NCBI GenBank assembly: GCA_014871385.1
Contig: CM026433.1
Location: 3,174,474 to 3,238,473, forward strand
From: Ceratodon purpureus
Lineage: Eukaryota; Streptophyta; Bryopsida; Pseudoditrichales; Ditrichaceae
DNA: 64,000 nucleotides
Direction: 5' to 3'
In this document: piece by piece, positions 3,838 to 56,960 of the stretch
Layout of the letters: each line of letters begins with the position of its first letter
How positions within the stretch are numbered: position 1 is the stretch's first letter
The notes under the pieces: generated by a model
What the model was told of the DNA's origin: nothing
Seen by the model: only the letters and a program-made list of their open reading frames with translations
Database searches by the model: none
Position numbers and translations under genes: made by a program

Positions 3838-5826
3838 TTACTCCCAATTCTGTGTCAGGAGACTACCAAGCTCGGAAAGCTCAGCTGCCTGTAGAGATGG
3901 CGGGAGTTCTGGTAGCCCTTGCCATGATGAGTGACCGGAACTGCTACTAGGAGTTAGCTTTTCTGCCGATGCATTGGTGTTACCATGCTCTTCGTCACCT
4001 AACCATATGCATTTCTCTCTTGGTCCTGTACGACCTTCTTGATGCAAGACTCCAGCAGGAAACTCCTCAAAAAAGGATTGCAAAGAATTGCGGATGTTTG
4101 AAGGCAATATCTTCAAAGCTTCGTCAAACTTGTTCTCGTCATTCTCAATTTTAGGACCCCACTCCCGCATGTGGTGCAGCCAGTCTGGTTCAAGGGGTGC
4201 ATCTATGTCACCCCTCTCATGCATGAATTCAGCAGAAAAAATCTGATTGTCCAAGAAAACCGGCGTTAGAACAATGTAGTAATCTATTCACAAGCCACCC
4301 AATCTTGAATTATTCACAAACTTGAAAGCACATTCTGGTTATAAATCTAGAAACTAGCTAGTTTGACTTAAAGACAGATTCACAACTCACAACTCAAAAC
4401 TCGAAGTGCTGTAACGACCAAGAGGACTTCTGCAATCAATATTGACTTGTAATATAAATATGTACCTCAAAATTTTCTGAAGAGACCAACAACTTTGAAC
4501 TAACAGTTGTGTCATTCTGCAACCCAATTCCATGGTTCTCATCTCCTTGGATGTGATTTCCCTCGTGAGGATAGCAAGAGTGGACATTCTTGGCAATATA
4601 CATGAAATACTTGTTGGCAACGTAAAACTCTAGATCAGAGATTTCAACCCACTCGCCTTTGCTTTGGTGAGAGAAATAAACAGCTTCCATCCCTCCAGTG
4701 AAGTTGCTCACCCTAAGAGTATAATGCTTCCAGTCTGCCAAATGCTCTCCCAGTCCAAGAGGAATGTCAACTTTCCCCACTCTAGCAATACTAGGCCCTC
4801 TAAAAGGGTAGAAAATCCAGCTCTGAAGATCGGTATATGTACCCCCATTAACCGGTTTGACATGAATATACACCTTTGCAGTCTTCAAGTTCCCCTTCTT
4901 CACAGTATCTTGAGTTCCATCTCCAGGAAGATCTATCCAAAACATACTATCATTTGTATCACATTGGGGTAAATTAGATCCGTCAGTTTTGATGCGAAGG
5001 GGTGGAGAGTCTTTGCTGTACAACATTGCACCAGAGTCAAAGAACCAGGCAACAGAACTAGGCAAATATTGCTCCTCTGGATGGAAAACCATAGTGGGTC
5101 CACTACAACGTTGAATTTTGCAAACTTGTTCCATTGTGGGCATGGCGTCCAGGGTGAATTCTATATTTTTGAGGCATGCTATTGGAAGATTTCTTTGCAC
5201 AGCATTGGATCGACCGCAGAAAAAGCTGCCAACGCTGACACCTCTAGCATTTGCTCCTCGTTCGGCAGGTCTTGTACTACAAAAGGTGACAATCTCCTCC
5301 AAGTCGCCACTTGTAGAGAAGAGTTTGCTGTCCAATTCCAATGCATCTGTGAGGTTGGTGCGGACACAAGTTACTTTTGTGAGCCTAGGTTTGTCTTCAG
5401 TATTTGTAACTAAGTATCCAAGAGCTGAATATCCTTTAGGAGCAATTGGTAGCCAGACCCAAGCATTTCCATTTTGCTTGCCAACCCAGGTCGAGCTCGT
5501 CCAAATCAGCTCAAAGTCCACGGGACATTTCAAAGCAGGGGAATTACAGTTCCTCTCTGGATTCACATTGGACATGGCATCCGAAACACTCCGATGAGTT
5601 TCTTGGTAATAAGCAATCAGCTCCTCCACCTTTGCATCCAGAGTTGAAGCTGGGACTCTGTTAGTACTCTGTGTGGAAAAATTACAGGCTTTGCTATCTG
5701 CAAATGACTGCGCCCCACGAGATAGCACGACCTCCTGGTTACCTCGCTCATCATCAGGAGGATTGTCCTGAGGCCTAGGAAAATTGAGATGCGCCTGCGC
5801 CTGCGCCCCCCTTAATCTGTATGCCG
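3838..5826 (-). CDS. Exons 6-7: AP2 end and main VPS62 domain
   Basis: Exon 6 (5826-4466) opens AAYRLRG, completing the AP2 domain, and after about 40 residues continues the VPS62/DUF946 domain: [88 protein letters not shown]. Exon 7 (4242-3838) carries the C-terminal signature [14 protein letters not shown] and [11 protein letters not shown] and the stop. The order and spacing follow ordinary plant VPS62-like proteins, so the domain looks intact apart from the AP2 insertion. The intron inside AP2 is phase 1 (donor GAG G/GTACGT, acceptor TTGCAG). Confidence 0.85.
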
Positions 5827-8800
5827 CTGCAAGGAGGAGGAATATACAATGAACCAAATGTGTAAGAAAGTATTACCAACAATAACTCAGGTTCAATTGT
5901 CATGATATTAAAATTCCAAGCATTTCTTAGTGAGCAGTTACGTACCCTCGTCGTACGCCATTGCTGCCTCCTCTGGTGTATCAAATGTTCCAAGCCAAAG
6001 CCTTGCCCGCTTTCGAGGTAACCGGATCTCGGCTACCCATTTACCCCAGTGCCGCTGTCGAACGCCCCGAAATGGCTTGACGCGCTTCGTCTTTGCTTGT
6101 GCATGAGGACGGACCCAAGGATTTGATGTCAATGGACTCCACAAAGTCTTGGGCACATTCAAAAGATTGTCATGGGACAATGGTGGGAACGCGAGCTGCA
6201 ACTGATATAATTGTTGGGACATAAGGGGTGGAATATCATGGAGTGGAAGGGGCGGAAGGGGTGGAACATGTGAATATTTTGGACTAATCCGAGATAGATC
6301 AGGTGGCTCCGGAAAGCTGCTCACTCTACCGGTGTATCCTCCAGACATGGTATGATGTGGTGCCACAAATGATGGGCCACTATTGAGCATACTTGTTCTT
6401 GTCGCGCTCACTCCACCAGTGTATCCTCCAGATCGCAAGCTATACATGTTATCATTTGGTACTTCAATTGATGGATCATCACTATTGAGCAAAAGCGTCC
6501 CTTTTGGAAAATCAGTTGATCCTACAGCTGCAATGGTAACCCCGCTATCAAATTCCGGCTTCATAGCTGCAATTCTGCAGGATAGCGCAGTTGAAGAAGA
6601 AAACTGCTGCGGCACCAAAGCCTGACTTAATTGGTTGCTGGTGTTTATAATATGGTCGTTTAATGACTCTGGAGCATAATTCTCCACCGATAAAGATGCG
6701 ATCGAGGATTCACCGATACACGAAGATGGAGTAGAGGAATCAAACAAATTGGTATTCAAAGAGCCTGGATGTGGCAAGGCTCCATATGGGCCCAGGACCT
6801 CCGGTAAAGACGGGAAATTGGTATTCTCTTCATGAGCTTCATTTGAGGCTAGGGCTGCCTGTGCAGTGGAAGAACTGATATTCAACTCATCAGATATCTC
6901 ATTTGCGGCTTCATTTAGGGCATGAGTTACCTGTCCAGAAGAAGTGATATTCTCCTCATCAGCTTCATTCGGGGCTGAGCTTATCTTTGATAAAAGATTA
7001 TTGATGATACCCCCATCATTCGCTTTGTTCCGGGAAAGAGGTACCCCCGTGAATGGATTACAGGTATTCTCAGAAGCTCCAGCAGACCGTGTTGGTGATG
7101 ATGGTAGTGAAGGGGACGAAGCCACAGACGAAGATTGTGGTCGACTCCCTGTTTCTTTTATGGCAAGTATCCAACCAATTCTAGCCCCAGAATTTCCCTG
7201 GCAGGAATGGCAAAGAATATTGTACCCTATTGGAATTTCATCTGGACAGTAGAAGGTAATGCCCTTGTTATCTATCCCACCCTCCAATGCAGTCCATACT
7301 GGCTTAAATGCCGAAATTTGCATGACTTCAACTTCACCAAGCGAAATGCGCCCAGTTGCAAATCCGGTCCCTGCCCAAGAAGTGACCATAAAGTGGTAAC
7401 AATATGTTAGGGTACAGTACAGACATCGATCCTTGACATGTAATATTGAAGAGGAAAAGAAAGCAAGCACACAATAGGAGGACAGGGAGTGGGAAGGTGG
7501 GATACCGGGGGTATGGTGATGAAGAACAATAAAGATGCAAATTTTTACCTGTATTACTGTCTGTCAATCTTTCCTCTTGCATTTGAATTTGAATGTCATG
7601 TTCTTTGTCCCAAGTTTCAAGTGTTGAGCTAACTAGGCATTCCTCTTGACTGGAGTACCCTTCGTAAGGTGAAGTACCGGGAGGTCTTGACCTTTCGACC
7701 AGCTTGTTGAAAGAAGGGTCTGTCAGAGAAACATAGAGTATGCACTTTGCTGAGACATTTAACGTTTAAGAGACATTAATCTAAAACATTAGCGATGTAG
7801 GACTAAAATAGCATAAGCAAGTTGGAAATTTGCTCAAATCTTACCTGTAACTTCGTTTGACTTGGTTCGCATCAAAAGGTGTGGTACTTGAAAACCGGGT
7901 TTTGTATCCCTCTCACTTTCAGATAATAAGCTAACTGGATATTCATTAATTAAGGGAGGTTGTAGCCTTTCGACAGGCTCGCTGTGACAAGAGGCTGTTC
8001 CAACAATACAAGGTATACATACTGTTAGACTAACTTTTCAGACCACAATCTACGACTTTAACTGTGACTGCCTCCAACAGTGTAGATGTAGATGCACTGC
8101 ACAACGTTAACACAAAATACATCAAATGAAATCCCACCTTCAACATCCATCTTCCTTAGATTTCCTTGAGGCATTTGAATGTCAGGTTCTGATTGGATTT
8201 GCCGTTCCAGTAAAACGGGCATTTGAATGACAGGTTCCGAAGTATATAGAGAAGTGGCTGTCAAAGAAACAAAGTTAATAAGATGCATGCTCACATCATT
8301 ACATCCACCTTCATGCAGGTGGTGAGACATTGCTTTCACCTTTTCCTCTTTAATTTGAGCATTTAGAACTGGACAGTATGTATGGTTACAATGAACTTCA
8401 AGCAGCAACTAAATGCTCAACCGATTGGATCAAGCTGACACTATCCTTTGACTATTATCAAAATCTAGAGAGCATCTTTGAGAACAAAAGTGCGATCCCC
8501 GGTATTAAAAACAAGCAATGGACTTTAAGCATCAGAAAAGAAAGGCGATATATACAACTGGTTAAAAATAGCGAGATGCACAGGAACAATTGAGGAGAAC
8601 ATGAGTATAGAGACTGCAACTTGTATGTATGATGAGAAAAGTTGTTCTTGACTATTGTGAATACAAATTGACATTGTAAAACAGATTAAAATGAGAAGCA
8701 AAGTTTTTAGCATAAAACCTGGACTGAGTAACGTCTTGCAGTATTCTTGAAACCACATGCGGATTTTGGAGAAGGTAGGTCGTTGAGCAGGATCACCCCA

Positions 8801-9769
8801 GCATGATCTCAAAAGGTTGCTTAGCAATGGTGGGCATGCTTCCGGTAACTCTGGCCTGAACCCAGACAGTATTTTACCTCTTAAGTCTTTCCAATCTAGA
8901 CCCGGATATGGATCTTTGCCAGTCAAGATCTGGGAGCATGTCACAGCAAAGCTGTAGACATCAGCTGCAAAGGCGTCAACTCTTGGCAGCCTCACATCAA
9001 CAACGGGAGGAGTCGAGATCTCATCGTGATCTGAATCTGAGCCTGATTCCGAAGACGTTCCATCTTTATCTCTCGACACATGGAGTTGTCTTGAGAGCAT
9101 CTCAAGATACTCTGGTGCTTTCCATTTAACGAAAGCAAGCTTACGGACCTGCCGTGAAATAAACGGCTTACTCTTTCTTTTGGTCCGAACTAGACCAAAG
9201 TCACTCACTTTCACCAATTTCATATTCCGATCACCATCCTTCATACAAATGACAAGAATGTTCTTCGTCTTTAGATCCCCATGCGCAATCTCTTGTTCAT
9301 GCAGGTACTCCATGCCCGAAGCGATCTGCAAGATTATGTCTAGTACTTCCGGCATTTCTAAAGCCTGCGTGGAAGCCCATGTACCAGAAGGTCCAACATC
9401 TCCAGAGTCTTTGGCAACCAGATCTTGTTCAATCTCAGTTCTTTTCTGTAAAAAGCTCAGAAGGTCATCGTCCATATGCTCCAAGACAAAGGAACAACTC
9501 CTCTTGTCCACTGTCCAACCATACGTCTTCACAATATTCTCATGGTCCTTCAGGCCTACCAAAACAGCTGCCTCTTGTAGAAAGATGTCGCTCGGTACTC
9601 CAATAAAGTCTTTTCTTGCATACCTCTTTCCTTTCCATCTTGTCTCATAGCCAACGCCGGACAGACCTTTACCCAGAAGGCGCATGCTGGGTAGGTCTCG
9701 TGACCGCAATTGAAATGAAACTGCAGCTCCAGAGCTTCCAGCATCGTTCTCACCAGTTGGACAGGCCAT
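3838..9769 (-). CDS. Kinase - VPS62 - AP2/ERF fusion gene (7 exons)
   Basis: Proposed exons on the minus strand are 9769-8719, 8257-8138, 7994-7845, 7719-7549, 7370-5946, 5826-4466 and 4242-3838, giving about 1560 residues. The first five introns are all phase 1 and the last is phase 0, so the frame is kept throughout. Order: non-RD TKL-like kinase (about 1-350), three short low-complexity linker exons, the start of a VPS62/DUF946 domain, a Ser/Asn-rich linker, an AP2/ERF domain split by an intron, then the rest of VPS62 to the stop. The VPS62-start exon has no initiator Met at its 5' edge and opens at an acceptor, which supports joining to upstream exons. Known families: VPS62-like proteins are plant proteins of poorly known membrane-related function; AP2/ERF binds DNA. 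The fusion of all parts in one mRNA is inferred. The alternative is two genes, kinase (8.5-9.8 kb) and VPS62-AP2 (3.8-8.3 kb). Confidence 0.6.
5946..7370 (-). CDS. Exon 5: VPS62 start, linker, AP2/ERF domain
   Basis: This 475-codon exon opens [18 protein letters not shown], matching the start of plant VPS62/DUF946 proteins, and continues through [18 protein letters not shown]. It then enters a Ser/Asn/Pro-rich region of about 280 residues and ends in an AP2/ERF domain: [38 protein letters not shown]. The domain is of RAP2.4/DREB A-6 type (Val at position 14). A short [10 protein letters not shown] segment before it resembles the Q-rich helix of that subgroup, so flanking sequence of the ERF seems to have come along. 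Because both domains lie in one uninterrupted frame, this part of the fusion does not depend on splice prediction. Confidence 0.88.
7549..8257 (-). CDS. Linker exons 2-4 of the fusion (phase 1-1)
   Basis: Three exons (8257-8138, 40 codons; 7994-7845, 50 codons; 7719-7549, 57 codons) each begin after a pyrimidine-rich acceptor ending CAG and end before GT in phase 1, so each can be added or skipped without breaking the frame. Two carry a related motif (EPVERLQPP and KLVERSRPP) that recurs as KPVERPRLP in a linker exon of the kinase gene at 41226-41351. No known domain is visible; the sequence is polar and probably disordered. Confidence 0.6.
8719..9769 (-). CDS. Exon 1 of the fusion: family-1 non-RD kinase
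   Basis: The translation starts MACPTGEND and contains a glycine-rich loop ([12 protein letters not shown]), a Lys in YARKDF, catalytic loop [10 protein letters not shown] (HGD in place of HRD), [12 protein letters not shown] and the late motif DVYSF. An acidic insert ([11 protein letters not shown]) lies between APE and DVYSF, as in the other family-1 copies. The kinase ends RPTFSKI; a donor (CAG/GTTTTA) follows shortly after, phase 1. If this intron is retained, the frame runs on to a stop at 8525 through hydrophobic stretches, giving a 414-residue alternative product. The family resembles plant TKL/Raf-like kinases; the substrate is unknown. Confidence 0.85.
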
Positions 9770-11728
9770 GGCGTCTTTCCTTCACGTGGTACCGTGGAGC
9801 AATTCAACACATACCTATAACACAATCACATGCTGGAGCAATGGTCACAGGCGAACTAGTGAAAGCAATTTGAGCATGTGCCGACTCGAAGTGCCTGATG
9901 CTGGATGACTGCTAGCCTCCTATCTACCCATCTCACAAACCTGCTTGCACAAGTCAAAAACAGAGGTTAGCTGCAGCAATTTGTGATTCGTTCCATCAAC
10001 GACGCACTCTTGCAACATTTAACAGTGCGCATAAGCGAACAGGGTGTAACCACATCCTTGTATTTTGTGTCGTAGCAATGGTCCCCAAGATAAGCAACCG
10101 ATTGACAAATACCGATCTGATCTAAGCAGTACTATAGCATTCTGCAACTTGTTTAGGTCACACTACTTGAATTGCCCTGCGAGTAGAAGTGAAAGATACG
10201 CACAAGAAAGCTGGCGGTCTGAAGAGGAGAAGAGAAAAGAAAACGAGAAAGTCTTCGAAGCACTGCTTACATACTAATAGCTGCTTTTAAACCCTCTTCG
10301 ATTTCATCCAACTCTGCTTCTTAGGTGTACCTGCTGTCCTAGACTCTCAGTGATGGCTGTTGTTCCTGATATGTCTGTTGTGCAGTTTAAAAGCGAATTT
10401 AAAACCGAACGAGTGACACTAATCCTCCTGTTTAGATATGAATGAGAGTTGATACGCTACCCTCTTTGTTCGGCAAGAGATCTTACTCCAAGAGAAGCGC
10501 TCGGGGTTCGTTTGAGGAACTGCGTATTAACGAAACCAGCCACATCGACAGCCACACTATTCGTCAGAACAAACAAATTATGATTGAGTGGGTGTCAACC
10601 ATCTGTGTAGCTGTAAGGGTTACCATATCGGACGAGTCTACAACTTTGATGCCACAGCGGGACGACGTCCACCAGACTTATGGTTGCACTAGGAAGTTGT
10701 GCACACTCAATTTGGGGCATGGAGTTAGAGCCTAGAGGCATTTGATTGGAACTCAGCTTGGAAGGCCCCATCTCCCTGAAATGTGGCACGAATGGTGACC
10801 AAGTTGCGGGCGGCACCTCTACTGTTCAGGAAAGTACGCGTCGCCAGTGACTATGTTTACTGACAACTTGGAGCCCTATTCAATGCTTGAAAGTCTGGCG
10901 GAGATCATCCCGATTCCCTGTTACAATGGCATCTTGAATTGTGTCTGGTTGCATTTGAAAGCTATCATTGCATGGCTCGTCCAGGCGTCATTTTGACGCC
11001 TGTCTACACAGAAAGTAGTCATCTGAAGGGTTAAAGAAACTATGGTTCAGGGGAGGGAAGCGTGCAATCGGAAGACCTACACGCACGAGCAAGAAAGTTT
11101 TGTATACATTTAGAAACTCACATGATTTAAGTCCGTTCAATTTGTGATCTCGATTCAGCAGGATACAAAACTAGCTAATAAACGCGCAACCAGGTATTTG
11201 TACGAGGTAAAACAGTGAAATTGGTGGCTTGGCAGAATTTTCCTCGCTGGACGTACATTCCGAGTCCTACAAGTAAGCTTTTAACCTGCAATTCTAGTCA
11301 TTGAGATGATTGTGCACAAGCTTGACGATCTTATCCAATTGTTAATGTACCAGTTTCATCCCATTTGTGTTATTCTTGGAGAGCGAGTTTCTTTGACCGG
11401 CTGTCGAAGAAAATTTGGTGGCGAGGATAATTTTGTAGGCCCTAGAGTCTGGACTCTCTTGCTTCATATGTTTAGGTTTTCTTGATGCCGAACGTATATC
11501 AAATTGAAGTATTGATGGTTTGTTTCAAATGGCTAAGAAGGCAGAGAAGTCGAAGCCGTTTTGCTTAGTACCTCATGGAAGAATTACTTTCAATTTTTTC
11601 GCTTAGACTGCTCACTGATCAAAGGCTTCATGTACTTCAGGAAACGAATGATTTGAGAACGTAAATGTTTGATAATCTCCCAAAACCTGAATATAACGTC
11701 TTCTCTTTACTTGCATCCTTCGTTCCAG
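9770..11728. other. Intergenic region between divergent kinase genes
   Basis: It separates the minus-strand fusion gene from the plus-strand family-2 kinase and should hold both promoters and 5' UTRs. A TTTAAAAGC element (minus strand, about 10285) is a possible TATA-like site. I found no convincing coding exon. The base before the likely ATG at 11729 is preceded by TTCCAG, so a 5'-UTR intron ending there is possible. Confidence 0.4.
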
Positions 11729-14609
11729 ATGAGGAGAAAGGAGAGTCTGGCGTCTACAGCTCTAGATACTGTCGTGAAGAGTACACCAGAGGATTTCCAG
11801 CCTTCTAACTCTCTGTTTCCAGATCTAGAGAACACCATGACTGAGTACTTCGATCTTACTGATTTTCAAATTTATGAGGACGCCAGGACTGAGTACTTCG
11901 ACACAGAGGCTTGCTTTACAATCTCAGAGAATACCGTCACACAACATGTCGAGCCCAGTGCTGGATTACGCATCAAAATAACTGATGTGATTGACCATGT
12001 CGAGCCTGCTAAAGAGCAAGCCATGATAGAGCACTTTGAGCTTGCGCAAGGGTCAAGAGGAAGCCTGCCTGAAGCTGAATTAGATTGCCATGGGCGGGTT
12101 ATAGAACTACGTCGCTGTGCTCATCCTACTGATTCGCCACTTGTTGCAGATTACTCTCAATTTGACCTATCAAAGTTTATCAGGTTGTCTTCTGAATCTT
12201 TCCCTGACCTGGAAGGCCCTCAGTTGAAGCTCTTGAGCGATCTCTGCCTTACTGCTCATCGTTCTGAGGAGTTTTTCCTCAGCGTTGCTAAAAACCAATG
12301 GGTTCGGACGTCTGTCACCTCTGATAGGCCCCCTGATGTCTTCTTTTCTGCAACTTCCGCAGACGAAGAGTGCTCTAAACTCATCTCTAGCGTCACCATC
12401 CACAGTAATGTTCTACCATGTGATCCATTCTGGACAAAGCTCCGGGCTATGAGAGATTGGGCAAGCCAGAGAGTGCATTTTCCTTTCTCTATACTCAAGG
12501 AAGCAGTACTGGAAGGAAACTCACTAATGAAGCAGCTGGTGGAATGGAGAGAGAAAAGAGAAGAATGTGACATTGGTAAGCATGGGTTAAAAAGATCCCT
12601 CGATGGAAAACTTTTACAAAAGAATTTGAGGTTACTCTGGGAAATTCGGGCTGATGTGAAGCCAGTGAAACTCATTGCAGAGGGTTCTGATGGGACGCTA
12701 TGGTTGGTAACCTGGAGAGGTGGTATATTTGCTAGAAAAGATCGCAGAATGATTTCCAACAACTCCATCGATCCTAAAATTGCCGTCGACACAGAACTCA
12801 ACGTTGTGGAGAAGCTATTTCATCCAAATATTGTTTATACCTTTGGCGTCTCTAATGCTGGAAACACGAACTCTCTTTTTATGGAATATATGCAAAGTGA
12901 TCTTTCTCATTTTATTCTCGATAGAGTTCGTATAACCGATGGCGATGAGCCACCGTTCTCACACCAAGATTCCATCGATGTACTTCTGCAATTTGCACAA
13001 GCAATGGCGTATATGCACAGGGAGGACGTGGTACATGGGGATCTGAAGTCTCTCAATATCCTCATAAGCGAGATTTTGATTTCAGAGAATGAAAAGCATT
13101 TTTTAGTCAAGGTCGCGGATTTTGGAAGTGCCCGATCCATGATCAGCTCCGACTCTGGATCCGCAGGTTTCAAACCAGGACCTGCGACCACCAAGTATGC
13201 TGCACCAGAGGTTTTGAAGATGCGTGAAGACAAGGACTTCGTTATCTCGATTCCTAAAGCACTCGATGTCTACAGCTTTGGGATTGTAGCATTTGAGGTT
13301 CTTACAGGGGAGGAGCTCTATTGCGACGTGAATTCTCAGACCAAATTGAAGAGAGGCATAATCGATGGAACTCTAAGACCGTCTCTTCGTCAAGAATGCC
13401 AGAGAGAGAACTTTCTAAATGACGAGAGGATGATATCACTTGTTGAGAGTTGCTGGCATGGTGACCCCTCTATGAGACCGTCATTTTCGAAAATCGTTGA
13501 AGCGCTTCACAGCATCGGAGTAAAAATTCTGGTGCGATTCTGACGATGCTTTCCAATTCATGTTTTTACACTCTTGCTTTCATTGAATCGATGTGTCTGG
13601 CAGAACGGGTTGAACGTCAACTTTCATAAGTGGTGGAAGTATTGTTGAACGTCCATGCTTATCTGAACAGATTCTGAAACGATCACACAATTGATTTGAC
13701 ATAAGTAGTGTAATCTCTGCTGTATTATTTGCGGACAAACCTGCCGTTTTTTAAACCGCGGGAACCAACTACAAGTTTTTGGCCGATGCTCCTTACATGA
13801 ACATGAACAAGATACTGTGTTTTTACACTTCATATAAAGCTCTCCAGGAAGTACTATTAAATACTTACAGCTAAATGTTTCCTACGTTTTATAGAATCCA
13901 ACATCTCGGAGTGACCACCATCCACGACAAGAAAAATTTCTTGGTGCCACTCCAGGTGTTCTTGAGGTAATTATAAACACAACCTTAATATCAGTTACGA
14001 AGAGAACCTATAACTTGGTTCACATGTTAGAGCTGCAGAGTGAGGAATTCAGTTCAGATTTACTTGGAGGAATCAGATCAGCGATCATAGTGTTAAGTCA
14101 AATCTGTCCACAGTCATGATGTTATTTCATTGTTCCCAGAGGATTCATCAGCTGCTGGAACCGATTAAATAAGATGTTTTTGCTACCCTTCTTTCGCAAT
14201 TCTAGCCTGATTTTCTATATACACGGTTGCATCAAAGCTTAGGTGCAGGGACAGTACCTTCTAAAACCGGTCAGGAATTCAATGTGCATTGGTATGCCGT
14301 GAGATGAAGACGTATCTGTCTCCGTCTGAAGGTTCAATACTCATAAGTCACATTTAATATTCGACGACTTGGGGTACTTTGATTACTAAATGATACATGT
14401 TCTTAATTTCCAGGTGCCGACGCCTGTAAAAGAAAGCCATCGACAGTCTCGAGTTCCTCTTCAGGTAACTAGGGCTGCAACCTCACCATACATAACTGGA
14501 ATAATAATTAGCTATCTGTATCTTTTGAAGGAAGATTGTAATAATTTGTAGAATTCTTTTACAAGAGGTTCAAGATTCACAGGTTCCAGATGTTGCTGGT
14601 TCACAGTAA
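11729..14609 (+). CDS. Family-2 kinase with long N-terminal domain
   Basis: The main exon (11729-13531, 601 codons) starts MRRKESLAST, chosen by alignment to the paralogue at 18-20 kb. Repeated short motifs (MTEYFD, RTEYFD, EHFELAQGSRGSLP) precede a shared domain with FPDLEGPQLKLLSDLCL, SEEFF, WVRTSV and IHSNVLP, which I cannot name. The kinase follows: degenerate loop AEGSDGTLWLVTW, Lys in FARKD, HGDLKSLNIL, DFGSA, YAAPEVL, DVYSFGIVAFEVLTG. A phase-0 donor follows KIL. Two downstream exons (13895-13966, 14414-14464) match exons of the minus-strand paralogue (17839-17765, 17468-17418) in length and sequence (PTS.S..H.RQEKF; SRVPLQ), which supports them. The terminal exon is uncertain: 14583-14609 ends in TAA, while 14654-14707 and 15002-15106 are alternative phase-0 exons. 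Reading through the donor stops at 13543. Confidence 0.78.
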
Positions 14610-17417: not shown

Positions 17418-19987
17418 CTGAAGAGGAACTCGAGATGGATTGTGACTGTTTATTACAGGTGCCGGTTCCTGCAAAGACAAATCACCTTAAGAGTTAAAAA
17501 CACTACCATGTTTTCTATTTCTTTGGTATTCTTGATTACTCCAAAATGCTGAAAAATAGGTAGTTCCTAGTCGAATGATAATTCCTATTATATTGTTCAC
17601 CAATTTACGGTACATGAATCTGAACCTCAGGTTAATGAAAGGCAAATATAAGTCGCCAAAAACAAGAGGAGTGCTGGATTTGTAGTTCAGCGAAGACATC
17701 TTCATTCACCTCAGCTTGTAAATCCACTTTGTTATTGATGTTAAAAGATTGTATTCCTAATTACCTCAAGTGCACAATTTGGTGCGTCATCAACAAATTT
17801 TTCTTGACGTCGATGGCGGCCACTGCATGAAGTTGGCTTCTGTAAAAACATAAATTCGATTACCTTAATAAACTTAAAACAGTGTCTCTACTATCAAGTT
17901 CTCGCACACCATAAAATAAAACCAAAATTTCTTATTCCTGTTCATGCTAGCAATTGGGGAACAAGATGAACTAAAGAATCTGGAAATCCAGACTTGCGAA
18001 ACTAAGGTAACCTGGTTCTGCAGTAAAACGATATAGGAACAAATCAAGTTATAAGCAATTAAAGATTCCAAACACTTTTTAATGATTAGATAACCATGAA
18101 CTGTAAGCATAATATTCACTCTAGATAGATAACATCCAATTCGTTACACAGGTTGAGCAAAATGAAAATGAGAAATAAAGTGAACATACATGAAGCACAG
18201 GACTAGAATCATACCAGAATTTGAGCTCGGATGTCCGTCAGCTCTTTCACGATTTTTGGGAAAGAAGGTCTTTTGGAGGGATCACCGTGCCAACAACTCT
18301 CAATAAGTGATAACAATCCATCATCATGTAGAAAGTTCTCTTTTTCGCAATCTTCACGAAGGGGTGGTCTCAGTTTACCATTAATTATGTCTTCCTTCAT
18401 TTTCCTCTGAGAATGCTCGTTTGCGTAGAGCTCCTCTCCTGTAAGAACCTCGAATGCTACAATGCCATAGCTGTAGACATCCAGTGCTTTAGGAAGAGAG
18501 ATATCCACATTCTTGTCAACACGCCTCCTCAAAACTTCTGGTGCTGCATACTTGGTAGTTGCAGCTCCTGGTTTGAAATCTGTGGATTTAGGATTCGAGC
18601 TCACAAACTGAGCACTCCCAAAATCAGCAACCTTCACCAAATAACGCTTTACATTCTCTGATATCAACACTTCACTAACAAGGATATTATGAGCCTTCAG
18701 ATCCCCGTGTACTACACTCTCTCCGTGCATGTGTGCCATTGCTTTTGCAAATTGCAGGAGTATATCGACTGAGTCCTGGTGTGAGAACGGTGGCTCGTTG
18801 TCATCTGTGTCACGAACTCGGTCAAGAATCAATTGGGAAAGATCACCTTGCATATACTCCATGAATAAGGAGCTCTTGTTTACAGCATAAGAGACACCAA
18901 AGCTATATACCATGTGTGGATGAGAAAGCTGCTCCACGACGTTGAGCTCCGTGTCGATGGCATCTCTGGGGTCAGAATTGTCGTTAATGTTGGAAGTTCT
19001 TGTGCGATCTTTTCTCACAAACAGACCACCTCTCCACCTTACCAACCATACAGTCCCATCAGACCCTTTTGCAAACTGTTTTAATGTCGTTACATCGGCC
19101 CGTATATCCCAAAATAGCCTCAAAGGGTCACTTCTAGTATTTCCATCCACAGATCTTTTCAATCCGTGCTGACCAATTTCACATGCTTCTTTCTTCATCC
19201 TCCATTCCTGCAACTTCTGCATCAATGTGTTCCCTTCATGTAATGCCTCCTTGAAAACAGCACAAGGAAAATGCACTCTCTTGCTTGCATCATTTCTCGT
19301 AGCCTGAATGTTTGTCCAGAATGGATCACGTGGTAGAACGTTACTATGGATGGTGATGCTGGAAATGAGTTTGCAACGTTCTTCGACCTTCAATGTTGGA
19401 GAAAATAATTCCTGAGGAGCTTTATCAGAAGCAACAGATGTTCTGACCCATTGATTTTTCGCAACACTGAGAAAAAACTCCTCAGAACGATGAGCAGTAA
19501 GGCATAGTTCACTCAAAAACTCCAATTGTGGCCCTTTCAAGTCAGGGAAAGATTCACTCGAGAACCTGATAAACTTGTCTCTCCCAAGTTCACTACAATC
19601 TGCAACAATTGGTGACTCAGCAGGTTGAGCATTGCGTAATTTTATAACGCGACGATAACGATCTAAATCAGCTCTAGGCAGGCTGCCTCTCGACCCTTGC
19701 GCAAGCTCGAATTGCTCAATCATGACACGGTCTTCAGCAGGCTCGGCATTCTCACTCACGTCAGTATGTTCGATGTGCACTTCAATTGGCTCGACCTGCT
19801 GAAGGATGATGTTCTCTTCAATTGGGAAAATATTAGGCTCAAAGTACTCGGTCCTGGCGTCCGCTTGCATTGAAGAATCAGTAGCCGTCAAGTACTCAGT
19901 CATACTGTTATTAGAAAATAGAAAATTAGAAGGTTGGAAATCTTGTGCTGCGTTCTTCACGAGAGCCCCTAGACTAGTGGACGCCAT
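17418..19987 (-). CDS. Family-2 kinase, paralogue of the 11.7-kb gene
   Basis: The main exon runs 19987-18215 (591 codons); the chosen start is MASTSLGALVKN, and an upstream in-frame Met exists at 20029. N-terminal repeats of EYFEP/EYLTA type and ELAQGSRGSLP precede the shared domain (FPDLKGPQLEFLSELCL, SEEFF, WVRTSV, IHSNVLP). Kinase motifs: KGSDGTVWLVRW, LFVRKD, HGDLKAHNIL, DFGSA, YAAPEVL, DVYSYGIVAFEVLTG, RPSF. The exon ends QIL at a phase-0 donor. Two small exons follow: 17839-17765 (25 codons, KPTSCSGRHRRQEKF) and 17468-17418 (17 codons, SRVPLQ), each homologous to the matching exon of the convergent paralogue. Read-through of the donor stops immediately (18209), so a short isoform is possible. 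The last exon was not found. Confidence 0.8.
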
Positions 19988-21736
19988 ACCCTCCTCTCTT
20001 TGAAATGTTACCGCAGATTCTCTTAGCATCCGTAACGAAGGATGCCGATAATGAGAAACACTATTTCAGGTTTCAAGTGAATATTACCGTGCAGTTGACT
20101 CCGAGGCTTCAATACAGAGATAAATGCCGGCAGAGAAGATGACTCCATCCTCACTCAAAAAGTCCTGGAACAGAGCACAACAAGATATTAGTTTTCTGGA
20201 GAAAATCAAGCACATAACAAATGCGCTACAGGAAGAATCTGCTTCTGAAGTTCCTTAATGTGATGAGGTGCTACGTAAATAAACCTGCTTCACCCTCCCT
20301 TGACTTCTGTCACAAACCGTTGAGCTTTAATTTTTACATAGGTTATCTATGGCCATAAACCCAAACCAGTCTTTCCACAACCTCAAACACATCGGATAAC
20401 GTAGAAGTGATCGACGCAGCCTTTGTAACCTAAGCGGCTAAGCAAGGTGCAGCATATTTGGTATTTTTGGGAAAAAGTGAGGGACCCAACTCTTGTGGTA
20501 GATTCCTTGCGGTCACAGCTATACAACGTCTGGTCTACAACCTGGTCGAACAAATTCCAGAGCCATACCTCAAGATAAGGACCAAAGAGGTACGTAACCA
20601 ACGACAAACTTGTGCATCATCTTTCAATCACATTAATCTGGGTTAGAGACTCACCTGTGGTCGGAACTAGAAGTTGCCTCCAAACAGCTCCACCGACTCT
20701 CATTAAACGGATGCTCGCTAGCGTTCTTCTGGGTAAGGTCAGAAAACGAATAGCCTTCATTCCAATAGTTCTTTGGAATTCAACGTTCATGTCTACAGAT
20801 TGCACACATTTCCCTCCTCTGTACCTGATTTCTTCTGTGGCAAAGTTTACAAGCTGAGAACATCAGATGGAGAGTATGATTCTCTAACTGGACGAGATGC
20901 TAAGATGGTGTTCAAACAGAACCCACATCTCTTAACCCTAGCCTCTGCAGACAACCTCGCGCCAAGATGTAGTGGCAGCCATCACCGAAGTTCTCTCATA
21001 AAGTATTGAACAGAATAAAAAGTTGTCTGTATAATGTCTGCACACAAAAGTTGTCTGCATAATGTCTGCACTCAAAGTTGTCTGTACACTTATCTTGTGC
21101 ACTGTAGACATTACTGTTCAAGACCTTAGGTCAACATGTCGTTCGTAACTTCGCTCTTCCTCGTTTGCGAGTGTTGCTGCTTTTCAGTGGGATGCAGCTT
21201 CCGGTGCTGATTTTCGAAGGCGTCCTTCCAGCTGTTGGCCCGGATGGAGTGTACAGCTTCGAAGAGCGCCTGCAGCAGGGGATCGACATCCAGGTGCAGT
21301 ATCTTTACTTTGGACTCCTCTTTGATGAGCACTCTCGTACGACAGTAAACCCCTACTGCTGAACCGATTTTTGTTTAGGCTTCAAGTTTTATGTACAAAT
21401 TGAGTATTTTTTGTTCAAATGATCTACACAGCTTGTAGCAAGTTTCCTGAGCATCGGTGCTCCTCAAATGCACCTCAACTGGCATGAGCTATGCTACTTT
21501 TTTCTTTAACAGTGCACTATCACTCCTTTGAAGCTCAACAGGAGAATCAATGCTACGGTCTCTGCTTTGCTTTGCTATGGAATGATAGTAGATTTTTGCA
21601 ACACTTATTATTGACTTCGAGCTGCAAAAGACAAACATATAGAATTAATAAGGGTTTTGGAACATCTATCTGTAGCAAGTGCTTCTAAACTTTCTAGTTT
21701 CCATTTTGTATTGTCTTCCTAAGTAAAATCCTCCCG

Positions 21737-22524: not shown

Positions 22525-22731
22525 AAGGTGCCCTTGGCTCGTCTGGGATGCTAGAAAGCGTGATGTATCTTGCTTTATGTGATCAATTACAAGCAGCATT
22601 AAATGCAAGCTGAATTGCTAACCTTCATCTTGGGCGTTATTAATGAAGTTTCAAGGCTAATAGAACTGTGCTTGACTTCTTTGTCGACAGGGTATAGAGT
22701 TAAGCTCCTGGTTCAACTCCCACTCTTCACA

Positions 22732-39282: not shown

Positions 39283-42276
39283 ATGGCGACTCGACCAAGG
39301 ACAAGGACGACCTCTAGAAGCTCTGGTCCAAAGGGATCTTCTGAAGATAAGCATTCTGTGGAGAGCGCTGGCATGGCCTCTTCAACTGGTGATAGTGTTG
39401 TTAGACACTCGGAGGACGCATTTTTATTGCAATCGAGAGAGTTGCCGAGCATGCGCCTAGTAGGTAAAGGTCTGTGTGGCATTGTGTATGAGACGACATG
39501 GAATGGTGTCAGACATGCAAGAAAAGATTTTGTAGAAGTCCCAAGTGCAGTTTTTCGACTTGAGGCCCTTGTTTTGCTACATCTCGAAGGGCACAAGAAC
39601 ATTGTTAAAACCTATGGCTATACGGTTGACAAAAGGAGTTGCTCTCTTGTCTTGGAATATATGGACGATGACCTAGTTAGCTTTCTGCAGAAGAGAAAAG
39701 AGTTGAAGCAAAAACTCCGTGGAAAAGCGTCTGAAGCAGATCACCTGATTGACCCTCAAGATTTTATAGAGAGCAGGAAGAATTCAAATGTTCCGGGCAA
39801 CCTATCTGATCTATCGACTTGTCTTCCGCCTCTCCAGCTCCCAGAAGCTGTTGATATCATGTTGGAGATGGCCACCGGCATGGCATACCTGCATGAGAAT
39901 GGGATCCCGCACGGTGATCTTAAACCAAGAAATATTCTAGTCACTCTTTCGAATGGGACAGAGAAGTTAGTGAAGGTTGCTGATTTTGGTTTACATCGTT
40001 CTAAAAGTCAGAGCATGTATTTTGTTTCGCGAAGGGCACGTGTGCTTGACATGGCTCAATGGAAAGCACCAGAATATTTGGAGATGTGTAACCTAGACAA
40101 GAAGACATTAGAATCAGATTTGGACGAAGATGAAGAAATGGCGATACCTGTAGGCAGTTTTGACTGGCTGTGCAGAGCCGATGTCTACAGCTTTGCTTTG
40201 ACAAGTTTCCAGATCTTGACCGGTGAAATCCCTTTTCCTATACACAAGTGGGAATCTGAATCAGCTGTTGATAACATCGGGTTCGAGACCCGACTGAAGC
40301 CAGAATTGCCTACCATATTCCAATTAGGGCTATTGGGCAAACTTATGAAATCATGTTGGGGTGACACTGTTGAACGACCTGATTTTTCAGCTATCTGCAA
40401 GCAACTAGGGGAAATCAAAGGTAAGCCTGAGAAGTTATGTTGTGACTAGACTTTTACCACTCATGTTGTTTCTATGTTCCTTGTTGGACCTATCAATTGG
40501 CCATCAGGTTGTTGCTTAAAATCATTCAGAACTTGGATTCTCCCTTTTGAATGCTTAGAGGGAGTAATGGTACGGTGGTTGCAATGCCTTACCGTATGCA
40601 TGGAATGACAGGAGAATCTTATCAACTTACTCTGTTTTCCTTGACAGCCTCTCTTATTCCCATAGTTTTCCAGTCAACATTGACACCTATTATTTCAAAA
40701 CGGAAGCAAAGAGAACTCAATTTTATCATTCAAATGCCACGAAGGAAGCGAAGGAAGATGGCCCTTGCAGGTGAGATATGAGCCGATGCACATTTTGGTT
40801 GTGATTCGATTCTTCATCTCTAATGTTTGTTTGGCGCTTTGTTTATTTCTTTGTTGGTGGTACCAAAAATACTCTCAACACACACCTACGTCTCTGTTGT
40901 TCTGGCAGCCTCTACTTCCAGGAAGCCCGGCGAAATATTAGTTTTGGATTCTAGATCGGAGGATCCTATGATCAGTGATTATACTATTAACCCGCCATCC
41001 GAAATTGAAAGCAACATAAACTTGGTCGAATCTCAAGCATCACAACCTTCGACGCAGAGGAAGTCTATGGAAGTCACAGGTGAGATTTAAGGGAGTTTGA
41101 GCATATTCAAGATTTAGCTGTGCTGTTACTCTACATATATCCTTCGTGTTCTATTTTAGGAACAGATCAGCTCCCTCTTGATTTTCATGTCCTAACAAAG
41201 TAAGTTTTCTTGATTGCTCTGGCAGACTCTTCTTTGAGCAAGCCTGTCGAAAGACCAAGATTACCAGATTCTGTACTTGACGAAGGGTTCTTGGAACTAG
41301 AGGACGACTCGATTAACTCAATTCAAAAGCAAAGGGAGCTAGATGCTGCAGGTTAGATTTTGCTATTACATTCTGATTCTACATTGAATCTGCATCTGCA
41401 TTGTTTGATTTGGCTTTTGAAGTCACGGAATTTAAGTATCTCTTCCTCCACTCTCCCACATGTCTTTCACATCGCAGCAACAAGTTCAATCAAGACTAAA
41501 AGTTGTAGATTATTTCTTTGTAATGCAGCTACATGTCAAGCATTCTTTGAATGTAATTTCTCCTCATATAAATTAGGCAAGCTGGAATGTTAAAGAACTA
41601 ACTGATTCCATGTGCAGCTGCTCCTGAGAGTTGGGCGCCGCCAGAATTCGCTCAATATACATCTTCACCTATAAAAAAGAGAGTTTCTAGGGCATTTAAG
41701 AGATGCATAACTGTCACTAAGGATGCTCTGAAACACTCCGAAGATCATATGTTTCCAGATATAAGAGGCCCCGAGCTACATTCTCCATTTCCCGGGATAA
41801 TCTCATCCCCTGAAAGATCCCATTTTCCTCACCATCACGAACTTGGCGATGCTCCTGAGAGTTGGGCGCCGCCAGAATTCGCTCAATATACATCTTCACC
41901 TATAAAAAAGAGAGTTTCAAGGGCATTTAAGAGATGCATAACTGTCACTGAGGATGCTCTGAAACACTCCGAAGATCATATGTTTCCAGATTTAAGAGGC
42001 CCCGATCTACTTTTCCCGGGAGAAACTCCATTTCCCGGGATAATCTCATCCCCTGAAAGATCTCATTTTCCTTACCATCACGAACTTGGCGATGGTAAAA
42101 TTGGAAATCTTGGTCTAGAAACAACCAGTTCGGAGAAAGGGTGGAAGAAGGCGTTCGTTCGAATTCCCTCCAAAATCCAGCACTGGGCTGCCAACAGTAT
42201 TCAATTCTGTAAGCTATCCAAGTCAATCGAGAACTATGAGTTTCCAGGTGACTATAGATTTTCAAGTGAGGACTAG
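39283..42276 (+). CDS. Family-1 kinase with phase-1 linker exons and repeat tail
   Basis: Exons: 39283-40420, 40648-40770, 40909-41079, 41226-41351 and 41618-42276. All introns are phase 1 and the total is 738 residues. The kinase has VGKGLCGIVYETTW, Lys in [28 protein letters not shown], an acidic insert (ESDLDEDEEMA), DVYSF and RPDF. Linker exon 4 carries KPVERPRLP, shared with linkers of the VPS62-AP2 fusion. The last exon encodes two tandem copies of a 77-residue unit (APESWAPPEFAQYTSSP ... FPDIRGPEL ... HHHELGD), then a basic tail ending FSSED. The FPDLRGP motif also opens the shared N-terminal domain of family-2 kinases. No known regulator domain was recognised in the tail. Confidence 0.78.
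41620..42098 (+). repeat. 231-bp in-frame tandem duplication in the last exon
   Basis: The copy starting at 41620 is repeated from 41851 with very few changes (for example ACTAAGG/ACTGAGG). The second copy has a small in-frame insertion encoding FPGETP. The near-identity indicates a recent duplication that kept the frame. Confidence 0.9.
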
Positions 42277-42514
42277 ATTATATTTTGACACGTATATATT
42301 CAGTCAAGTACAACGTAGGAAGTTAGCACGTTTTCAAGCCAGAATCTCCAGGATTAATAGAGCCAGCCCTCTGGGAGGGCTTTCACAATAAGCAACCGAT
42401 ACGTCTGTAAACGTATGAAACCTGCATAATATATATTGGAGCCGTCCGCTCTATTCACGTGTAATACACTTGACGTGTCACGGCAAACCGCAAGTGCAAG
42501 CTATACAATTCATG

Positions 42515-43140
42515 CACTTCAGGAATTTAGTTCACAGGAATCTCAAGCCCTCCGACATTGTTATCATTGTTCACTGCGCTTCCTTGCAAAGAGTGCGAAT
42601 TTCGGCGACGGACAATTTATCTTCTTAGGAGAGAGCTTCCAACCAAGCGGACCTGGAACCACCAGATATCTACAGCGGCACAAGATGTGCTCCAGAGATT
42701 CGAGTCCAAAGTGCAACCTCTGGTAAGTAGGAGTTTCCTTATCTCCTCTTGGCTAAGTTGTCCTTGCCTAGGTTACTCATGTTGTGCAATTTTGTAGCAC
42801 TTTGAGTTTTACCTGACTGTGAGTCTGAGGCCTGAGAGCTGCATCTATGCGTTCAAAGAATGTGCTTAAAAGTTTCTAAGTGAGATAACGTCATCACAAT
42901 GATTGCCAAAGACTACATTTTTCCAGAGGTCAATTGATTTAACTCTGTTGCGATGCCTGGACTAACAGGGCATATTTGTATATACAGGACAGGGAAGCTG
43001 TCGACGTGTGGAAGTAGCTTCTTTCCTGCATCCTTCTCTACTTTGTCAATGTTGTTCATTGCCTCATGGTGTTTGCTTCGATTTGTATCGATTAACACAG
43101 CAGTGATCTTCAGAGGTTTCGCAGTTCAATAGGTTGAGGT
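42515..43140 (+). pseudogene. Decayed family-2 kinase copy (like the 55-57 kb gene)
   Basis: Segments align in order with 56025-57030: TCAAGCCCTCCGACATT (kinase loop region), TTCCTTGCAAAGA, GGAGAGAGCTTCCAACC, GGACCTGGAACCACCAGATAT, then a jump to GATGTGCTCCAGAGAT (kinase end) and the downstream GACAGGGAAGCTGTCGACGTGTGG exon, here with an in-frame stop (TGGAAGTAG). The kinase core between the activation segment and the last helix is deleted. It is non-functional. Confidence 0.8.
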
Positions 43141-43931: not shown

Positions 43932-53729
<9,798 letters not shown>

Positions 53730-54365
53730 TAGATTTTGCCAGCTTAGGAAATACTGCACTTGGATTTTGATCTAATTGGAGGCATCACTTCATCGCTTTG
53801 CCCAAGTTTAGAACCAAGATTTCGAAACAAAGAACTATTTACAACATACCAGATTGCTACCAGAATTCACACTGCCGATGATGCTTTGATGCCCGTGAAA
53901 TATTTACAAATCTAGCGAAGCTTGTGACTCCCTGCAACTTGGGCGAAGCGTTGCCATGGTCGTGGGTTGCTCGGCGTTGCCTATCTGCAACCCTGCTATA
54001 ATCCTTACTTTAGGTTCAGTACTCCTGCCATCCTCTCACCTCGTTAGACATACCTAAAGCTCCACAAAAATGATCACGCACAACACCTGTTCTTGCTATG
54101 GAGAAATTCATCAACATGGCCAACAGAACGGTCATAATTTAAAGCTTGAAGACAGCGTAAAACGTTCAAATCCACGGTACTAAGAGCTAGAATCAACTTG
54201 TTCAAAAAATCATACACTGCTCCTTCTCCGACAAACTTCGGTTTCTGACGATGCAGAAAAATCTAGACTCTCACCACACCACAGAACCTATGAGTTTCAA
54301 CAAGACGTAGCTTAGATCAAACCAAGACAACATATAATCAAGCGGTAGTGCCCCACAATACACAG

Positions 54366-54782
54366 TTACAGAATAAAAAGTCTATCCAGGGCATCATAAA
54401 CAACTCCCGCTCTCCCACTTTGCACGCCATCCCACAAGACTGGACTGAGGTGGAAACGCCACGAGCAGAATCGGTAGCCGTGTTCCTCTCCAACAATACA
54501 TTTAATGATATTAAACGAGATTGTTGACTTCCAGTAACGAAACCACAGCATCCGCCATGGTTTAGGCCGGGTGTAGCTCAGCATCTCGCCCTTGCAAGTG
54601 TCAAGTTGGGCCCAATTCCAGGGTACCCACCAACTTATCCCATTCCAAGTCAGCTGTGGTAGAATGGAGTCAGTTTCTGGAGCCCGTTGTGTAAAACAAA
54701 TTGGGCCCTTCCATGTTGTGCTTGGAATCGAATAGTGGGTAGCCTGCAAATTGGAGCTTATTCCTCCACGCTGCTCGACCAA
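54366..54782 (-). CDS. Unassigned 138-codon open frame
   Basis: A Trp-rich open frame (for example WNGISWWVPWNWAQLD) lies in the roughly 1.3-kb interval between the YAK1 start and the family-2 gene at 55 kb. It matches nothing I know. It is long for non-coding DNA of this composition but has no other support, so it could be chance or a degenerate transposon piece. Confidence 0.25.
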   Translation of the reverse strand: MVEQRGGISSNLQATHYSIPSTTWKGPICFTQRAPETDSILPQLTWNGISWWVPWNWAQLDTCKGEMLSYTRPKPWRMLWFRYWKSTISFNIIKCIVGEEHGYRFCSWRFHLSPVLWDGVQSGRAGVVYDALDRLFIL

Positions 54783-55026
54783 GTTAGAGATCGAAGTAAG
54801 TTACGGTAGTGAAGGAGTCTGAAGGGGGAGAAGCTTAGTAGGGTTAGATCGGAGACCATTCGTTTGATCATCGCACTCTCTTTTAGGAGTCTGAAGTTGG
54901 CAAATTTGAAGGAAAGCAGATTACTTCATTACAGAATGCCTTCCAGGCTGCTCTCATCTCTGAGTGTATGTCTACCATGTTCTTAGTCCTAGGGCTACTG
55001 TGGTCACTTGGAGTCGTTTTGTCGAA

Positions 55027-56960
55027 ATGGATGTCTACTTTGAGCTCGCTCAGGGGTCATCTATGAGGTTGTGTCTCAATCTGGAGGAACAATTTCCTGA
55101 TCTTCGCGGATGGCAACTGGAGCTTATGAACTATCTTTGCCTCGTTGCTTATGAGTCAGAGATTTACGATGGAGTTTGTGAGGATGCGTGGCTTCGAACA
55201 ACCATCGTCGTGGAGGGAGACTCAAACCCTGTTTTCTCTGAGGAAAGCCCTGAACACAGTCTGTTGGCTGAAATGGCTGGAATCACAACGTCGAAGCATA
55301 CCGGATTATCAGAGTGGGCGCGAGTGGCGTATTGGAGAAGGCTGCAAGAGCGACAGTCTGACTTAACTGCGAGGATCAAAATCCACAGCAACATACTGCC
55401 TCGTGAAGCATATCGCCAGAAGCTGTTCCAGGAGCAAGTACATCAGTCGTTCTGGACAAAGCTACAATCTCTTATCAGAGACTCCTCCTGTTTCGTAAAC
55501 AAAAGATGGTTTTACCCTAGCCGAGTCCTTGCCGAAGCAGTTGAGGAAGATAGATCACTGAAGGAGAAGATGCAGGAATGGAGCAAGACAGGAGGAACAT
55601 GTGTGCTTGCAATGCATTTGCGAAGGAGCAATGTTCCACATGCGAAACCAAGGAATAGGCTCCGGGATGTGGAGCTGGCGGATGTGAAGTTGACAACGGA
55701 GAAACTCGGCGAAGGTGGCGAAGGGAGCGTGTACAAGGTCTCATGGCGCAATGGGACCTATGCGTGGAAATCGTTTGATCATGGAACCTTCGAGAGAGAA
55801 TGCGAGATCGCTCTGAGGATTCTGCACCCACATGTGATTCACCCTTTTGGACGCACTTCCGATGTGGACGGTAACCAGAAATGTTTGCTCATGGAAGTGC
55901 TGAGTGAAGATCTTTCCAGGTTCGCTGTGGAGAAGAAACGATGTGATACGTTCGATAGATGTCCACTCTTTTCACGCGTGGATACACTCGATGTGTTGCG
56001 GCAGATAGCAAGCGCCATACAATTCTTGCATTCCAGGAATGTGGTTCATGGAGATCTCAAACCATCCAACATTCTTATCAGCCACTTTGAGATATCAGAC
56101 AATTCACGGCACTTCCTTGCAAAGATTACTGATTTCGGTAATGCTCAATTCATCGTCTCAGGAGAGAGCTTCAAACCGGGTGGACCTGGAACCACTAGAT
56201 ATGCAGCACCTGAAGTTCTGCAATGGCGGAGGAATGCGGGTGTGCCATTTCTTTACCCTAAGAAATCAGATGTGTATAGTTTCGGTGTTGTGGCTTTCGA
56301 GGTATTGACAGGGCATGCGGTCTACAACGGGCACCTGAGTGTACTTGACATAACGAGAATCATAAAAGGCGAGCTGAAACCAAGTGATTGCATAGAATGG
56401 CTCAGCATGAGAAGAAGATATCCTGCTGAGATGATCCGCTGTTTGGAAAGGTGCTGGGAATTAGATCCTTCGAAGAGACCATCGTTCTTGGAACTTTGTG
56501 AAGTGCTCCAGAGATCAAAGTCTAAAATGCAACTTCTGGTAATCACATATTATTTCCTTGTCATGCTCCTTGACTTGGTTCCTTACTTGATGTTCAACAA
56601 TTTTGTAACACTTTGGCATTCACCCAACTGGGAGTCTGTGTTAGCTCTGAGAGCTGTATTTGTGTTCAATTAAGAATGTATTTCAAAGAGTCTGAAGGTT
56701 TGAAATCATTGGATCATCACTTCAGTTTCAAATAGCCTTTCGGTTCTTACATTAGGGATCGTCACAATTATTTCATAAGATGGCACCAGTACTTCAGTGA
56801 TGCCTGCTCTAACACCGGCAGTGATGTCTGTCCTTTAATTTGACAGGAAAGAAGAGCTGTCGACCTGTGGAACTTCCTTGCTGTGTGCTTCTCCGCATTC
56901 GTCATTGTTTTCATTGCCTTATGGTTGCAGAGATCTGCAAGCGGGCTCTGGTTTTCTTGA
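55027..56960 (+). CDS. Family-2 kinase with hydrophobic tail-anchor exon
   Basis: Exon 1, 55027-56538 (504 codons), starts MDVYFELAQGSSMRLCLN, aligned with the ELAQGSRGSLP motif of the longer paralogues. The shared domain follows (FPDLRGWQLELMNYLCL, AWLRTTI, KIHSNILP, LAMHLRRS), then the kinase: LGEGGEGSVYKVSW, Lys in YAWKSF, HGDLKPSNIL, DFGNA, YAAPEVL, DVYSFGVVAFEVLTG, RPSF. The glycine loop is more canonical than in other family-2 copies. The donor after QLL is phase 0. Exon 2, 56847-56960, begins ERRAVDLW and has a transmembrane-length hydrophobic run (FLAVCFSAFVIVFIALWL), then the stop, giving a 541-residue protein with a C-terminal membrane anchor. Read-through of the donor gives another hydrophobic tail (to 56673). 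The pseudogene at 42.5 kb retains traces of the same tail exon. Confidence 0.82.

Follow-up and report, generated by a model that had tools for sequence, protein, structure and literature searches.

Paired kinase genes in the window and across the genome

The stretch of DNA analyzed here, 64,000 nucleotides in length and hereafter the window, belongs to the KC19 assembly of the moss Ceratodon purpureus (C13:3174474-3238473; chromosome 12 by gene name) and contains a cluster of protein kinase genes. A first-pass annotation, made from the letters alone, had described eight kinases of two families on both strands, and this description is borne out by Pfam, which confirms eight kinase open reading frames, four from each of two families that we term F1 and F2. 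The catalytic loop reads HGDLK in all eight, which are thus non-RD kinases. By eye, the four F1 frames have both the beta-3 lysine and the DFG motif and therefore look like active non-RD kinases. Each F1 gene, numbered 1 to 4 below, lies head-to-head with an F2 gene, with gaps of 1.9, 3.0, 2.9, and 8.9 kb between the kinase matches.

8525-9781, minus strand: F1 kinase frame of gene 1 (Pfam)
11657-13543, plus strand: F2 kinase paired head-to-head with gene 1 (Pfam, pairing, tree)
18209-20065, minus strand: F2 kinase paired head-to-head with gene 2 (Pfam, pairing)
22603-24168, plus strand: F1 kinase frame of gene 2 (Pfam)
34854-36407, minus strand: F2 kinase paired head-to-head with gene 3 (Pfam, pairing)
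39280-40449, plus strand: F1 kinase frame of gene 3 (Pfam)
45119-46309, minus strand: F1 kinase frame of gene 4 (Pfam)
54964-56673, plus strand: F2 kinase paired head-to-head with gene 4, the YAK1 exons lying between (Pfam, pairing)

The same arrangement recurs elsewhere in the KC19 assembly (362 Mb in 151 contigs), where the search totals for F1, F2, and related kinases are lower bounds, the best candidates having been scored. By our own labels, a divergent F2 is found no more than 10 kb from 16 of the 20 listed F1 loci and no more than 35 kb from 18; the F1 loci with any F2 within 10 kb, in whatever orientation, are the same 16. Seen from the other side, a divergent F1 lies within 10 kb of 16 of the 18 listed F2 loci and within 35 kb of all 18. 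Among the 61 other related kinases listed as a control, none has a divergent listed kinase within 10 kb and three have one within 35 kb. The 18 pairs within 35 kb are spread over seven contigs, and by eye the two partnerless F1 loci (C6 and C9) appear degenerate. The line separating F2 from the other kinases was set by hand, and a kinase on C10 (5.64 Mb) that outscored the C7 F2 was labeled as other, with no F1 nearby.

The two members of a pair have been inherited together. Distance matrices of F1 and F2 are correlated (Mantel r 0.85, 15 pairs, 0 of 20,000 permutations), and the correlation is 0.88 when a recent duplicate, described below, is added (16 pairs, again 0 of 20,000 permutations). 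Two pairs, at C13 5.69 and C13 15.20, were excluded from the matrix test because the motif filter missed their F2 loops, which read HCD. The F2 sequences form a clade with support of 1.0 (17 members). In one F2, on C9 (L073), the N-terminal region contains a long tandem array of seven-residue repeats (VIEAEST-like).

Parts attached to the F1 kinases

Three of the four F1 kinases had been proposed to be fused to different regulators. In-frame joins are indeed found for genes 1, 2, and 4; the YAK1 part of gene 4, however, lies 5′ of its kinase and not 3′. The accompanying view of a kinase-plus-linker module whose attached part differs by gene also stands, the part differing at three of the four F1 genes of the window.

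3838-4242, 4466-5826, and 5946-7370, minus strand: gene 1, attached VPS62 (exons 7370-5946, 5826-4466, 4242-3838) with AP2 inside (Pfam)
8257-8138, 7994-7845, and 7719-7549, minus strand: gene 1, linker exons, all phase 1 (spliced frame)
8719-9769, minus strand: gene 1, F1 kinase exon with HGD loop and phase-1 donor (PF07714, E 7.4e-42; exon model)
22603-24130, plus strand: gene 2, C2H2-like stretch and F1 kinase in one exon (Pfam; KC19_12G032200)
24420-25534, plus strand: gene 2, attached exon with CAMTA-type IQ and then a DUF7950-like stretch (by eye), same frame
25668-26738, plus strand: gene 2, attached exon with DUF7950 (E 2.2e-10) and short tandem repeats
39283-42276, plus strand: gene 3, F1 kinase exon, three linker exons, and last exon (splice model)
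44486-44571, minus strand: gene 4, last exon with stop (18-exon model)
45169-46288, minus strand: gene 4, F1 kinase exon with phase-0 acceptor and phase-1 donor (Pfam; exon model)
46503-52056, minus strand: gene 4, 5′ part, YAK1-type exons plus other short ones, sharing the frame of the kinase exon

The seven exons of the gene 1 splice model yield a single frame of 1,560 residues that runs from kinase through linkers to VPS62, an open-frame result that is favored by the choice of exon boundaries with the frame in view, as is that of gene 4. The linkers resemble those of gene 3 by eye, and both Vps62 (E 8.5e-132) and AP2 (E 1.2e-12) pass their Pfam cut-offs. An ordinary VPS62 gene lies on C8; its exon 1 ends in phase 1 and its exon 2 begins SGFATGR. 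The window copy begins at precisely this exon-2 boundary, and a first exon of the C8 type was not seen by eye between the gene 1 kinase and VPS62. The partial VPS62 model of a second accession, M758_12G031700, opens exactly at the same boundary. The AP2 domain is placed within the VPS62 domain, where other moss VPS62 proteins carry a disordered-looking insert. A retrocopy origin was rejected for the VPS62 part, which keeps both an intron before the last exon and the C8 exon-2 boundary, and more weakly for AP2, where the match on C3 stops at residue 209, approximately at the window copy's intron.

The window VPS62 copy is old and constrained. Its core differs from that of C8 with dN of 0.20, dS of 1.79, and dN/dS of 0.11, a ratio that is rough because dS is near saturation; over 72 codons of the N part, the ratio is 0.24. 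The copy is changed at 24 of 193 columns that are invariant in six other VPS62 proteins, one of these at the alignment edge. Leave-one-out controls gave 3 of 196 columns for C8, 2–6 of 195–199 for C8 and three moss orthologues, 23 of 216 for Sphagnum, and 78 of 271 for Lonicera; at such columns, therefore, the window copy has diverged about as much as Sphagnum.

Gene 2 is annotated (KC19_12G032200; P0006) as one protein of 1,237 residues comprising a C2H2-like stretch, kinase, IQ, and DUF7950. The DUF7950 match passes the Pfam cut-off, whereas IQ (0.0012) and zf-met (0.0048) fall below theirs, and the IQ stretch is one that we take to be of the CAMTA type. Its counterpart in the second accession, M758_12G032500, shares 378 of 386 aligned kinase residues and 69 of 70 residues of the IQ stretch, and the kinase-to-IQ junction is identical in the gene models of both accessions, which are presumably the isolates R40 (KC19) and GG1 (M758). 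Beyond the IQ, the M758 protein has an aminotransferase domain (E 3.5e-38) where KC19 has DUF7950. The chromosome 12 placement of this fusion is taken from its gene name. In KC19, the nearest aminotransferase exons lie on C2, with identity of up to 99%, and C13 has none of the 30 matches listed.

In gene 4, 18 exons yield 895 residues with no internal stop, versus 53 in each of the other frames. The kinase exon has, by eye, no in-frame ATG before the kinase domain, and one further YAK1 exon lies near 52.8 kb. The gene 3 splice model is identical to KC19_12G032400 over its full length. Within its last exon (41618-42276), a segment of about 77 residues is duplicated in KC19 but single-copy in M758 (P0001 versus P0002); as a captured domain this exon was rejected, the search having returned only its own two copies. 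A decayed remnant resembling an F2 kinase lies 3′ of gene 3 (42300-43000, plus strand; by eye). The window also holds a tRNA gene (61761-61834, minus strand; Rfam RF00005, 71 bits).

The first-pass annotation had named, as a challenge to itself, the occurrence of the attached parts as unlinked ordinary genes. In KC19, such genes exist for VPS62, the IQ stretch, YAK1, AP2, DUF7950, and the aminotransferase. The window IQ stretch has relatives in IQ-bearing frames on C1 (74% identity) and C4 (69%); the nearest AP2 gene, on C3, has 56% identity; DUF7950 occurs twice on C10 and once on C7; and the nearest copy of the YAK1 part lies at C13:7081578-7084271, with 60–88% identity by exon. The fusion claim is kept, and the attached parts are read as extra copies, because the window copies in genes 1 and 4 no longer have starts of their own and the one in gene 2 is annotated as part of a fusion. 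On C7, an ordinary gene (L076; C7:2364000-2366700, minus strand), read as a single frame of 496 residues, itself joins DUF7950 to an AP2-like domain.

Beyond the window, a phase-1 donor occurs 16–27 codons past the RPxF motif in 14 of 19 F1 loci, in six of which it is not the best-scoring donor; two loci have a phase-0 donor, and three have none that is recognizable. Many F1 loci were covered for 1.5 kb downstream, so that more distant attached parts would be missed, and the Pfam scans excluded L042, L049, and the tails of unknown kind. Leucine-rich repeats follow on the same strand in 6 of 20 F1 loci (L040, L017, L018, L019, L024, and L025), two of them on chromosome 12, and are the largest single group in this slot, not the rule. 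One of the fusions, P0025 (M758_8G029500), is annotated as a single protein of F1 kinase and leucine-rich repeats; at the remaining repeat loci and at L043, whose downstream frame holds PDDEXK_6 and a kinase by Pfam, the join is deduced from position. The frames downstream of L023 and L020 gave no Pfam match. On C12, the frame after the F1 kinase resembles a vWA domain through a MIDAS-like motif by eye, and neither Pfam at E 0.01 nor a search of PDB sequences returned a match for it. P0023 and P0010 are annotated as F1 with further kinases, and P0024 as another kinase, F1, and an ACT-like stretch below the cut-off; tandem kinase was rejected as a general description, since among the scanned proteins just these three join F1 to more kinases.

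The kinase module can also be duplicated by itself. The gene 1 pair has a second copy at C13:1.94 Mb, about 1.2 Mb away, in which F2 is 100% identical (rounded) and the F1 pieces, spanning window positions 11268-7596, are 99.57, 99.49, and 98.11% identical. This copy, with a frame shift near its end, stops within linker exon 4, before VPS62, and the kinase module has thus moved without the attached part. Between positions 777 and 5160 of L039, the duplicated module is interrupted by about 4.4 kb of inserted DNA, which includes a frame resembling, by eye, a transposase of the pogo/Tigger type. Beside the module lie two copies of a PDDEXK_6/kinase gene (L043 and L049), 25 kb apart and 99.9% identical over 3,949 bases, the second lacking the PDDEXK_6 start.

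A candidate sensor and partner receptor system

Several known immune receptors offer points of comparison. As summarized in PMC5819176, the MIC1 clade of grass NLRs has acquired many integrated domains, lies head-to-head with members of another clade (the RGA5/RGA4 type), and has new fusions that are attributed to DNA-level rearrangement. The moss pairs share with these NLR-ID pairs a clade that takes up diverse domains and head-to-head partners drawn from a second clade without such domains (PMC5819176). They differ in that both partners are kinases and there is no NB-ARC, and 18 of 20 F1 loci are paired within 35 kb. Of at least 121 NB-ARC matches (121 of 311 candidates scored), compared by inspection of the list, none falls inside the window or less than 200 kb from an F1/F2 pair, and the listed one nearest any F1 is about 18 kb from the unpaired, degenerate F1 on C9. 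These are therefore not NLR pairs, and they may work like one.

Wheat kinase fusion proteins provide a second parallel. In Lr9 (WTK6-vWA), a kinase is fused to a non-kinase domain proposed as a decoy, and Sr43 is mentioned as another such fusion (PMC10260399, in part). The moss genes likewise place a kinase and an unrelated domain in one protein, as annotated for gene 2 in both accessions and for P0025 in M758 and as modeled by splicing for genes 1 and 4, and the C12 F1 even has the vWA-like frame seen by eye. Unlike Lr9, for which the available portion of PMC10260399 describes no divergent partner kinase family, they have attached parts that vary between neighboring genes. Pm13 is presented as an MLKL-type kinase acting as a resistance protein (PMC10951266, in part). 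Two relatives (P0026 and P0027) show similarity to DUF1221, as does one F2 to MLKL_N, in each case below the Pfam cut-off; in contrast to the MLKL/DUF1221 kinases, the MLKL_N-like start is present in just 1 of 16 aligned F2 sequences and the C-terminal parts of F1 are variable. The moss Pkn-NLRs are kinases joined to recognition modules with leucine-rich repeats (PMC11218826 and PMC3991678, in part), and the repeat-bearing fusions resemble them in this. Membership in this group was rejected, since no listed NB-ARC lies within 200 kb of any pair; two kinases that adjoin an NB-ARC in the KC19 genome share 32% identity with F2. Among the titles and abstract openings listed by literature searches, none presents kinases paired head-to-head as receptors.

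With moderate confidence, we favor the view that the pairs constitute a two-gene kinase receptor system, a sensor with its partner, analogous to the head-to-head NLR-ID pairs yet devoid of NB-ARC. F1 would be the sensor, a non-RD kinase exon mostly ending in a phase-1 donor, onto which a variable module is spliced, whether leucine-rich repeats (6 of 20), a captured host domain, further kinases, or a tail of unknown kind. F2, encoded by one long frame and divergent from the same intergenic region, would be the partner kinase, co-evolving with its F1, perhaps under shared regulation and in physical contact with it. The attached module would bind a pathogen factor and, in the case of captured domains, a factor that targets the ordinary host protein, thereby serving as bait; the bound module would alter the F1 kinase, F2 would be relieved or activated, and defense would be triggered, with F2 as the putative executor. 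New specificities would arise through DNA duplication that moves either a kinase module or a host gene, and F2 may, on slender grounds, be of MLKL descent. The other half of the first-pass annotation, an immune-type system whose members swap decoys, is something that we still infer; it gains circumstantial weight from the F2 pairing, the leucine-rich repeats at six F1 loci, the MLKL_N-like start (below cut-off), and the constrained but altered VPS62. Bolder, and in our estimation a little short of an even chance, is the proposal that mosses hold a separate class of intracellular immune receptor, divergent pairs with F1 as a landing pad for recognition modules and F2 as executor, in which integrated-decoy pairs evolved again without NLRs.

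A number of observations weigh against the receptor interpretation. Its whole basis is sequence and gene models. The F1 and F2 labels were assigned by ourselves, partly with position in view, and the separation of F1 in the tree has support of just 0.234. No gene 1 or gene 4 fusion protein is on record among the protein-search matches, and M758_12G031700 is missing a start codon and the greater part of AP2. To reach the aminotransferase, the M758 join in gene 2 reads through about 35 codons that, in the C2 gene, precede the first in-frame ATG, and a merged gene model is therefore possible. An acceptor scan of eight downstream frames placed phase 1 on top in three (L018, L019, and L025, with a tie in L040), which does not exceed chance, and acceptor phase is accordingly given weight only for P0025, whose protein record shows the join. 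The MLKL_N (PF22215) match, which would point to an N-terminal four-helix bundle, at the start of one F2 (L071; E 1.9e-4) reaches 21.4 bits against a cut-off of 27, in the sole F2 that was scanned loosely. The confinement of the repeats to 6 of 20 loci and the chance-level acceptor scan together lower the odds slightly.

Much of this would also be expected if the cluster were simply rearranging fast, host gene copies having come to lie beside kinases by accident and the joins being merged models or non-functional read-through. We consider this unlikely but serious. Rearrangement is seen in the 99.5% duplicate about 1.2 Mb off and in the 3,949-base repeat, and the decayed F2-like remnant, the lack of annotated fusions for genes 1 and 4, the aminotransferase joined via sequence upstream of its own ATG, and the chance-level acceptor phases are all in keeping with it. 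Accident accounts poorly, however, for a VPS62 copy that starts at the ordinary exon 2, with exon 1 not seen and the frame open; for a gene 4 kinase exon without an ATG before the kinase domain, within 18 exons that fit one frame; and for gene 2, in which one exon holds both the C2H2-like stretch and the kinase and the gene models of two accessions agree on the kinase-to-IQ junction.

Less probable still, though not negligible, is that the pairs are real and cooperate in development or abiotic stress, their attached domains directing the kinase to places or substrates. VPS62, CAMTA, YAK1, and AP2 are general regulators, as this explanation would have it, and the evidence at hand, being drawn from sequence alone, is compatible with such a role; unrelated domains occupying one slot across genes and accessions, with leucine-rich repeats as the largest group, instead resemble recognition modules. 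A genetic-conflict pair held by linkage, such as killer and antidote kinases, would fit two different kinases that are divergently linked and co-inherited, and is very improbable given that 18 pairs on seven contigs with diverse attached domains exceed the needs of such a system.

Should the sensor and partner interpretation be true, paired receptors with exchangeable baits would be a general solution and no specialty of NLRs. VPS62, the CAMTA-type IQ, DUF7950 or the aminotransferase, YAK1, and PDDEXK_6 would each name a candidate pathogen target in mosses, and the pairs would represent a second receptor type, testable in moss by gene removal.

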